Positions 11,670-63,437 of a DNA stretch of 64,000 nucleotides are shown here, one piece after another. A model generated the notes under the pieces. That model was not told where the DNA came from, searched no databases, and worked only from the letters and a program-made list of their open reading frames with translations. The stretch is from Halorhodospira halochloris (GTDB taxonomy: Bacteria; Pseudomonadota; Gammaproteobacteria; Nitrococcales; Halorhodospiraceae), in contig NZ_AP017372.2 in assembly GCF_002356555.2 (NCBI RefSeq), forward strand, positions 496,001 through 560,000, in the 5' to 3' direction. The first letter of the stretch is position 1. The number at the start of each line of letters is the position of its first letter. The position numbers and the translations under genes are program-made.

Positions 11670-11967
11670 TTAGCGGTTTCATTGAGTCGGGTGGGGCGGT
11701 AGTGGGAGACGCAGTAAATCTGCCCCTAGTTAGAGTCTCTCAAAACACCCCTCAGGGCCATTTCGCTCCCCGGTGTGGAGGACGCCGTGAATCCGTCCCT
11801 GGAGGCTTCATGGCGCCATCCATGGCGCCAAGACCTCCACACCGGGGCAGCGCAATGGCCCTGGGGGTGTTTTGAGAGGCGGCCGGGCAGATTCATAGCG
11901 CTGCCCTAGATGCCGTGATCTCTACTACCGCACTAACCCGGCTCAATGAGACCGCTAATCGGTGGCC
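11668..11967. repeat. Extended palindrome around an intact element
   Basis: The repeat at 11736-11879 is enclosed by a further pair of inverted arms. The left tip GATTAGCGGTTTCATTGAG (from 11668) matches, inverted, CTCAATGAGACCGCTAATC (ending near 11964). The inner flanks GCGGTAGTGGGAGA and TCTCTACTACCGC also pair, with small gaps. The whole 300 bp could form one long interrupted hairpin just after lptG. Three more copies of the GATTAGCG tip occur nearby, two of them at 12354-12379 and 12387-12412 in inverted orientation. Confidence 0.7.
11736..11879 (-). repeat. Palindromic element, copy 1 (core reversed)
   Basis: The left end TCTCTCAAAACACCCC pairs with the right end GGTGTTTTGAGAGG. Next come CGGTGTGGAGG and CCTCCACACCGG, and then an asymmetric core containing CATGGCGCCATCCATGGCGC. 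The core asymmetry gives its orientation, here opposite to copies 2 and 3. It lies between the convergent lptG and RDD genes. Confidence 0.9.
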
Positions 11968-30120: not shown

Positions 30121-32608
<2,488 letters not shown>

Positions 32609-44480: not shown

Positions 44481-44699
44481 GCGTCTCTAAAGCTCCCCTG
44501 GCGCCATTAGCTGTCCCGGTGTGGAGGTCTTAGCGCCAGGGATGGCGCCATGAAGCCTCCAGGGATGGATTCACGGCGTCCTCCACACCGGGGCGGATGG
44601 TGGCGCCGGCGAAGTTTTAGAGGTTCCCTCCAGGAGTGGGTTCACGGCGTCTTCCACACCGGGGTAGCTAATGGCGCACCGGGGAGTTTTGGAGATTCC
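44481..44699 (+). repeat. Chimeric palindromic element with two right arms
   Basis: The left arm TCTCTAAAGCTCCCCTGGCG pairs with the far right arm (ATGGCGCACCGGGGAGTTTT, ending 44689). Between them is a second, different right arm, GGCGGATGGTGGCGCCGGCG and AAGTTTTAGAGGTTCC, which matches copies 9 and 10. The core occurs once in full, then CTCCAGGAGTGGGTTCACGG begins a second partial core near 44630. This fits a nested insertion followed by recombination between the two left halves. Confidence 0.85.
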
Positions 44700-44717
44700 A
44701 TCACTGGTGGTGGCTGA

Positions 44718-58731: not shown

Positions 58732-58820
58732 AGCAGAAAGTCTCCTATTGTAGGTTGTTTATGGCTGGTGCTTTGTTTGAAATCTAGGTCTTGATTTTAT
58801 CATACCCCTGCATGGGCTCT

Positions 58821-59118
58821 TCGAAAAAACTCCCCTGAGCCCAGTTGTGCCCTGGTGTGGCCTCTAAAACTTCGCCGGCGCCACTATCCGCCCCGGTGTG
58901 GAGGTCTTTGGCGCCAGGGATGGCGCCATGAAGCCTCCAGGGAAGGATTCACGGCGTCCTCCACACCGGGGCGGATAGTGGCGCCGGCGAAGTTTTAGAG
59001 ATTACCCCGGTGTGGAGGTCTTGGCGCCAGGGATGGCGCCAAGAAGCCTCCAGGGAAGGATTCACGGCGTCCTCCACACCGGGGCGCAATTGGGTTCAGG
59101 GGCAAGATTTAGAGTCTC
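58821..59118 (+). repeat. Nested palindromic elements: outer copy
   Basis: The outer element begins near 58821 (CTTCGAAAAAACTCCCCTGA) and is interrupted at 58861. It resumes at about 59005 with the core and right arm, ending GGGGCAAGATTTAGAG at 59114. Its two parts are flanked at the junction by CCTGGTGTGG (58851-58860) and CCCGGTGTGG (59006-59015), one base different, as expected for a target duplication. Confidence 0.85.
58861..59000 (+). repeat. Nested palindromic elements: inner copy (copy 9)
   Basis: This is a complete copy with perfect arms: CCTCTAAAACTTCGCCGGCG pairs with CGCCGGCGAAGTTTTAGAG, and CCACTATCCGCCCC with GGGGCGGATAGTGG. It is inserted in the left half of the outer element. 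The clean ends define the unit as about 140 bp with CCTCTAAAAC termini. Confidence 0.92.
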
Positions 59119-59210
59119 TCCCCAAAAAATTTTGCTCGTAATGCATTAAAGTCAGCCGTGCCGATGACGAAAACGGGAAAAGAGGCGGTCATGGACTGCT
59201 GCTATTTCTG

Positions 59211-62270: not shown

Positions 62271-62410
62271 CCTCTAAAACTTCGCCGACGCCACCATCCG
62301 CCCCGGTGTGGAGGTCTTGGCGCCAGGGATGGCGCCATGAAGCCTCCAGGGATGGATTCACGGCGTCCTCCACACCGGGGCGGATGGTGGCGTCGGCGAA
62401 GTTTTAGAGG
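62271..62410 (+). repeat. Palindromic element, copy 10
   Basis: The arms CCTCTAAAACTTCGCCGACG and CGTCGGCGAAGTTTTAGAGG are perfect, as are CCACCATCCGCCCC and GGGGCGGATGGTGG. Compared with copy 9, GACG/CGTC replaces GGCG/CGCC and CCACC/GGTGG replaces CCACT/AGTGG, on both arms at once. It is the cleanest covariation pair in the window. Confidence 0.95.
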
Positions 62411-62438
62411 CCACCAAACATGCACAAAGAGCCTAATT

Positions 62439-63437
62439 ATGCTGGAGATATTTGCCTATATAGCGACTCTGTCCACTGAGGGAGTGCTGGGCCTTGATCA
62501 GGATAAGAACCTAACCCAGACCCTGCATTTCTTTATTGAAAGTACAACTAAGATCTTCGCCCTCTTGATTGTACTAATATACGTTATCGCGTTGGCGCGG
62601 GCCTCGCTTAATGTCGAGAGGGTCAGGGCTTTTCTGGCTGGTAAGAATAGGTTGCTGGGATATTTTCTTGGGTCTACCTTTGGTGCCGTTACTCCATTTT
62701 GTTCGTGTTCGAGTGTGCCGGTATTTATCGGCTTTACTTCAGCCCGTATACCTATTGGTATAACGATGGCGTTCCTTATTACCTCGCCGATGATCAACGA
62801 AGTGGCTGTTGTGCTGCTCTGGGGGCTGCTGGGCTGGGAGTTGACTCTGCTCTACGTGGTGGTCGGCTTCGCCGTAGGTATGCTGGGCGGTGCATTCCTG
62901 GATGCCATTAGGGCAGAGCGCTATCTGCAACCCTTTCTAGCCAAGGCTTATGAGCAGGGGAGTAGTAGCGCCTTAGCTGAGCCGGAGAACAAGCGCCTTA
63001 GCCTTAGCGAGCGGCATGAATTTGCTAAGGGTGAGACTAAAGAGATCTTCCGGCGGGTATGGAAGTGGGTTTTCATTGGGGTCGGGCTAGGGGCCTTGCT
63101 CTATGGCTATGTGCCAGACGGCTGGTTTGAGAAGAACCTGGGCGACGGTGCGTGGTGGCAGGTGCCTGTTGCTGTGCTAGTTGGTATTCCACTTTATACT
63201 AATATCACCGGGGTTGTGCCGGTGATGGAGAGCCTTATTCTGCAGGGGTTGCCGATTGGTACTACGTTAGCCTTTTGTATGAGCACGGTGGCAGCTAGCT
63301 TCCCCGAGTTCGTCCTGCTCAAGCAGGTTATGCAGTGGCGGTTGCTGGTAATCGTCTTCCTAATGCTATTGTTAGCGTTCACAGTGGCAGGCTGGATACT
63401 GAACCTGGTTGGGCCGCTGCTATTTGCCGGGGTGTGA
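62439..63437 (+). CDS. Permease of the DUF318/ArsP type
   Basis: This 332-residue protein has about eight membrane segments and the conserved TPFCSCSSVPVFIGF motif near residue 87. DUF318 permeases include ArsP, which exports organoarsenicals in some bacteria, but specificity here is unknown. I chose the ATG at 62439, after repeat copy 10, because upstream starts would translate the repeat. A thioredoxin-like gene follows, a pairing seen elsewhere for this family. Confidence 0.88.
   Translation: MLEIFAYIATLSTEGVLGLDQDKNLTQTLHFFIESTTKIFALLIVLIYVIALARASLNVERVRAFLAGKNRLLGYFLGSTFGAVTPFCSCSSVPVFIGFTSARIPIGITMAFLITSPMINEVAVVLLWGLLGWELTLLYVVVGFAVGMLGGAFLDAIRAERYLQPFLAKAYEQGSSSALAEPENKRLSLSERHEFAKGETKEIFRRVWKWVFIGVGLGALLYGYVPDGWFEKNLGDGAWWQVPVAVLVGIPLYTNITGVVPVMESLILQGLPIGTTLAFCMSTVAASFPEFVLLKQVMQWRLLVIVFLMLLLAFTVAGWILNLVGPLLFAGV

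Follow-up and report, generated by a model that had tools for sequence, protein, structure and literature searches.

MITEs, the non-autonomous derivatives of DDE insertion sequences, provide the nearest described parallel to the repeat considered here, which like them is short (about 150 bp), non-coding, nested and present in high copy number, with inverted ends and a target duplication of fixed length. Unlike in typical MITEs, a search of the genome found no autonomous insertion sequence sharing its ends, the arm palindrome takes up almost all of the element, and its apex carries an ancient, conserved RNA-like core, which is found in other genomes within other arms. The IS5 group of the IS5 family duplicates 4 bp at a YTAR target, and the element resembles it in its 4-bp duplication and its YNNR-like target inside C...G; unlike in that group, neither matching ends nor, with two Pfam models (PF01609, PF13340), an IS5-type transposase were found, and membership of this family is no more than a lead. 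REP sequences and BIMEs, with their RAYT transposases, are likewise intergenic, multi-copy and hairpin-bearing and occur in the same genera (Xanthomonas, Stenotrophomonas), but the present element is longer, has a three-way-junction architecture and makes 4-bp duplications in its own genome; in place of the invariant GT(A/G)G head that REPs carry beside the palindrome, its core has head-like positions that pair and covary. Finally, the CsrB, RsmX, RsmY and RsmZ RNAs expose CANGGANG or ANGGAN loops on several hairpins, as the core would; unlike these RNAs, the element has only two sites per copy in hundreds of dispersed copies, a long palindrome, a random orientation to genes and no Rfam match above the gathering score.

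The window, by which we mean the whole stretch of 64,000 nucleotides analysed, belongs to the H. halochloris genome (one contig of 2,834,560 bases) and contains, at 58821-59118, one copy of the element inside another, in the fabI-der interval; all features are given on the forward strand. For the species, passages of PMC8877833 give the strains BN9851 and BN9852 an ANI to BN9850 of 99.94% and 97.6%. With the borders that hold across the family, the inner element is 151 bp long (58856-59006), begins with TGTGGC-CTCTAAAA, a left end deviating from GGGWRC/GGTGGC, finishes with TTTTAGAG-ATTACC and has perfect inverted arms of 43 bp. It separates a left outer fragment (58811-58855, the outer border being diverged and approximate) from a right fragment (59011-59120) which comprises the core, the right arm and the end TTTAGAG-TCTCTC, and over 66 nt the inner and outer bodies are 98% identical. 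The target duplicates on either side, CTGG (58852-58855) and CCGG (59007-59010), agree at three of four positions. Excision of the 151-bp unit and one 4-bp duplicate leaves an uninterrupted outer element, in which the core equals that of the family except for two substitutions, the left and right arms align once more, and the palindrome score is 24.5 as against 11.5 for the better single flank.

The preliminary description of this locus had held that the outer parts form one normal element after excision, and so they do, provided that the unit 58856-59006 and one 4-bp duplicate are removed. It had also drawn attention to a near-perfect 10-bp flanking repeat, found on inspection as CCTGGTGTGG (58851-58860) and CCCGGTGTGG (59006-59015). 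The repeat is present, and with one further base it becomes an imperfect direct repeat of 11 nt with one mismatch (58850-58860 and 59005-59015), a length that none of 3000 randomly chosen sites in the window attained when junction windows of similar spacing were compared. As the length of the duplication, however, it gives way to the 4 bp of the family, even though the window copy judged alone fits the 11-nt near-duplicate slightly better and may by itself have had a longer duplication; the longer repeat is best taken as a 4-bp duplicate extended by the likeness of the element ends to the target. That the inner copy interrupts the outer one is thus beyond chance, and the restored outer element together with the family-wide 4-bp duplicates bears out transposition with target duplication as the process that placed it there. 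We consider nested insertion by transposition at this locus very probable. Its value is that it calibrates the element, fixing the unit, the target and the relative order of insertion.

The family-wide borders derive from copies throughout the genome, in which the core 15-mer GGNTTCACGGCGTCC has 164 exact matches and the reversed pattern none. A first look by BLAST gave 341 candidates, 40 of them scored, and 80 stretches around copies were taken from the BLAST and 15-mer matches, a sample that leans towards well-kept copies and, with the window, contains 101 cores at two or fewer mismatches. Both end anchors are present in 61 copies, among them one faulty row (L124), and later sets kept 59 or 60. 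In one fixed register, set 6 bases beyond CTCTAAAA on one side and beyond TTTTAGAG on the other, 40 of the 61 anchored copies are flanked by exact 4-mer duplicates (40/60 without L124) against 1.3 expected from shuffled flank pairings, and 20 of 60 have no exact 4-mer. Longer exact duplicates are found in fewer of the 61 (5-mers in 31, 6-mers in 23, 7-mers in 11, 8-mers in 4), and the duplications of 9-11 bp that had been anticipated at other insertions proved on survey to be of 4 bp. The targets prefer C-YNNR-G, with a preceding C and a subsequent G each in 31 of 40 and the 4-mer itself tending to YNNR; matches longer than 4 bp occur because of this preference and because the ends of the element are G...C. 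The unit is 150-152 bp long in 38 of 40 copies, with ends GGGWRCCTCTAAAA...TTTTAGAGGYWCCC and inverted terminal repeats GGGWRC-CTCTAAAA and TTTTAGAG-GYWCCC, so that the mobile unit proposed earlier, CCTCTAAAAC...GTTTTAGAG, has to be extended by some 5-6 bases per side. The only coding stretches in the elements are fortuitous short ORFs. The element is a MITE with 4-bp duplications, and its insertion is ordinary MITE biology.

A transposase with the MITE ends was not found in the genome, either with the profiles PF01609 and PF13340 or in stretches between paired ends. PF01609 has six matches, all IS1634/IS1380 relatives with different ends, and PF13340 has none; nine forward-reverse end pairs lie 0.2-5 kb apart, and the three of these stretches that were read contain either more copies of the element or genes of ordinary kinds, UppP-like and UvrC-like ones among them. 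The mechanism we envisage is that a transposase not found in this genome recognised the ends GGGWRCCTCTAAAA and TTTTAGAGGYWCCC and attached them at staggered breaks in a C-YNNR-G-like target, of which 4 bp became duplicated, and that a MITE of about 150 bp thereby entered an older copy in its left arm.

The surprising part is not the nesting but the conserved core. A centre of about 50 nt recurs across Gammaproteobacteria within unrelated arms. With the inner copy as query, matches are found in 15 of 59 relatives (the own genome included), and alignments to the other genomes span mainly the centre and not the arms. A scan of named genomes with GCCTNCAGGGANGNATTCACGGCG gave at least 119 stretches, and the 80 titles listed include Xanthomonas, Stenotrophomonas, Marinobacter, Pantoea, Alcanivorax, Microbulbifer, Ectothiorhodospira and Methylococcaceae; between genera the arms differ completely. 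Likewise, the pattern GCCT-N10-ATTCACGGCG, with ten free positions, matches in 36 of 193 genomes. One relative, G009, has the core in an element with the ends TTACTAACC...GGTTAGTAA, possibly with a TA-type duplication. Many contigs of this relative (L275-L283) break inside copies of its element, and for this reason its copy number is probably underestimated. At the G045 loci (L268-L274) the patterns used detect no core, viral contigs scanned with a single pattern gave no core match, and one 91-nt Luteimonas query gave nothing in plasmids and phages, so that distant forms could have been missed. Weak Rfam hits below the cut-offs, such as Ysr224 (35.5 bits against a cut-off of 70) and RsmW (E 3.2), were taken as chance. 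The open literature, beyond which most subscription papers lie, yielded no paper describing this repeat or repeats that bear CsrA sites. Judged by these comparisons the core is much older and more widespread than the 4-bp MITE. Even if CsrA is left aside, a core that stays the same from genus to genus in ever different arms, and is unrecognised by Rfam, is an unusual evolutionary unit.

The core is predicted to form two hairpins with CANGGANG loops at the apex of a long variable stem. In the inner copy, hairpin 1 (58909-58928) has the loop AGGGAT within CAGGGATG (58915-58922), and hairpin 2 (58933-58955) has the loop AGGGAA within CAGGGAAG (58938-58945), followed by the invariant GATTCACGGCGTC; the corresponding hairpins of the outer core lie at 59022-59041 and 59046-59068. 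The inner unit folds at -121.1 kcal/mol (z -14.6) into a long stem closed by the two hairpins, a figure dominated by the palindromic arms. The distance from GGA to GGA is 22-24 nt in 104 of 104 cores and 23 nt in 91 of them, and it is 23 nt in all 67 own copies. Among the matches listed outside the own genome (ten positions free), 119 of 130, from 22 genomes, have hairpin 2 as x-CANGGANG-x. Within these 119 listed matches, the third loop position is G in 76, T in 31, A in 6 and C in 6, the last is T in 61, C in 42, G in 10 and A in 6, and the bases flanking the motif pair and covary, being A-T in 87, C-G in 29, G-C in 1 and A-A in 2. Of 114 elements listed from named genomes (set A), 102 have hairpin 1, whose six pairs are 94.8% Watson-Crick compared with 52% when the arms are shuffled; its loop is CANGGANG in 83 of 102 elements of set A, the other 19 having different loops, in 34 of 41 of set B and in 62 of 64 own copies.

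Mismatches in the arms bear on whether a single strand has been under selection. Palindromic DNA without strand preference would give equal numbers of G-T and A-C mismatches, so that an excess of G-T argues for strand-specific folding. With an alignment that penalised all mismatches equally, G-T to A-C is 124:33 in the named-genome set as listed (P 1e-13) and 49:12 in relatives (P 2e-6), P values that are optimistic because members of one genus do not count as independent observations. For single genomes, which partly overlap the relatives set, the counts are 51:16 (G135), 16:2 (G053) and 17:7 (G038, not significant). The own-genome arms have no such excess (45:36, P 0.37; 52:42 in a second count), which we read as recent neutral decay, and which is also contrary to a mutational cause. 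On this comparative evidence it is quite probable that one single strand, most simply RNA, has been under selection to fold, although single-stranded DNA would yield the same sign of mismatch.

What such a strand could bind is suggested by the loops. Passages of PMC4353343 give the published Rsm motif as A/U-CANGGANG-U/A, and passages of PMC7652899 describe RUACARGGAUGU, mostly in hexaloops, as the product of CsrA SELEX, the binding of ANGGAN loops by RsmE, and the bridging by the CsrA dimer of sites 10-63 nt apart, with an optimum above 18. As far as those passages go, the sequence contains what a CsrA site comprises, namely ANGGA in a hairpin loop closed by C-G (CANGGANG), and two such sites at a bridgeable distance; the invariant ATTCACGGCGT, which speaks against this reading, does not belong to the site. 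The own genome has a csrA gene, as do 166 of 193 genomes, and its presence does not separate core-bearing from core-free genomes; the core-bearing G049 and G061 have no csrA match, both being fragmented or incomplete. Element orientation to neighbouring genes has no bias (12, 19, 11 and 14 of the 56 placed, with a similar control, 56 of the 119 listed elements being placeable at the 150-aa setting). A simple mRNA role was set aside on this count, and random orientation implies that most copies are not selected for a role in host transcripts. The simplest reading is that the core may be a dispersed two-site CsrA/Rsm-binding RNA, which we put forward tentatively, at a little under an even chance. 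On this reading the core at the MITE apex, with its two CANGGANG-loop hairpins 23 nt apart within a long variable stem, would in a sense-transcribed copy bind a CsrA dimer, and the bound copy would act as a dispersed decoy or tether.

Taken jointly, MITE insertion and a core selected as a folded single strand with two RsmA/CsrA-type sites form a likely explanation of the locus. The wider proposal, of a chromosomal two-hexaloop RNA module found throughout Gammaproteobacteria on different MITE frames, its putative CsrA sites scattered by transposition as a mobile decoy or tether, is only slightly less probable than CsrA binding itself, somewhat under an even chance. A CsrA-type module that is both dispersed and mobile would be a novelty. 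If it exists, it could rewire the Csr regulon; a global regulator would be titrated or tethered by hundreds of double CsrA-type sites spread by transposition, and copy number would then vary among strains, providing a natural test of how mobile repeats rewire a post-transcriptional network.

The core could, in principle, have no cellular function at all, being kept by element copying and palindrome-directed repair, with an accidental likeness to CsrA sites. Random orientation to genes, the equal mismatches of the own genome's recent copies and the multi-copy spread all agree with this, but the same core sits in many genera within wholly different arms, the free positions in both loops are exactly the two that are free in the CsrA consensus, and the diverse sets have the G-T excess, and we consider absence of function unlikely. 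A somewhat less likely alternative still is that the core is a single-stranded DNA hairpin recognised by an HUH (Y1) transposase, in the manner of REPs, and not an RNA site. The reverse strand of the core has G(T/G)AGGC beside the hairpin, reminiscent of REP heads, the genome has six matches to Y1 transposases, and single-stranded DNA likewise favours G-T over A-C mismatches. Passages of PMC2817692 describe GT(A/G)G-headed REPs in Xanthomonas, Stenotrophomonas and Thioalkalivibrio. The would-be head in the core, however, pairs and covaries (A-T 53 and C-G 24 of 78; A-T 87, C-G 29 and G-C 1 among the 119 listed), while REP heads are fixed, and recognition as DNA would leave the CANGGANG pattern unexplained. 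The copies in the own genome also have inverted ends and 4-bp duplicates, which IS200/IS605 insertions are not known to have.

Nesting itself is common in this genome. The window copy and no fewer than eight others of the 60 usable anchored ones lie within another element, as gathered by inspection and two scans rather than by a single uniform test; L083 and L099 are neighbouring elements and not interruptions, and were left out of the count. With an appreciable share of the intergenic DNA taken up by copies, some nesting would be expected. At L057, L076 and L112 joining restores the outer core and arm, the outer copies are partial at L061 and L104, and at L110 the outer right arm is damaged and there is no duplicate. 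At L065 and L096 the outer element has a different frame: the own genome also harbours diverged elements with arms like the G009 frame, and in these two the 4-bp MITE has inserted (alignment scores of 14-21 with the G009 frame, a score of 14 being reached by 6 of 300 random own-locus pieces, some of which may be further copies). The duplicate at L096 is a 3/4 match, like that of the window copy. A history without transposition, in which two copies gave rise to this arrangement by tandem duplication, by recombination or by template switching at the GGTGTGG microhomology, could appeal to a junction repeat that at 11 nt with one mismatch exceeds the family's 4 bp, and to the recombination between copies evident at L110 and in the window pair 44567/44638, but it is very improbable in view of the complete outer element after joining, the complete inner copy with both its ends, and the exact 4-bp duplicates at six nested copies (L057 CACT, L061 TGGA, L065 CTGG, L076 TGGA, L104 TCAG, L112 TCTA).

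Transposition thus remains the preferred origin of the nested pair, besides which the window has core matches at 11780, 12550, 19353, 27523, 33319, 36592, 44567, 44638 and 62354; a core-like match with three mismatches at 31404 is probably due to chance. A second composite occupies 44540-44700, where a complete right end GTTTTAGAGG directly precedes another core's 3' half and arm, as after nesting and recombination. Elsewhere, L350:219-409 combines one core and one left arm with two successive right arms of different subtypes, which looks like nesting followed by recombination between cores. The copy at 62354 (62271-62420) is flanked by the 4-bp duplicates AAAC/AAAC, and it supplies an apparent ATG (MKPPGMDSRRP...) in frame with a permease-like ORF (62337-63437), likely a trap for start-site annotation.
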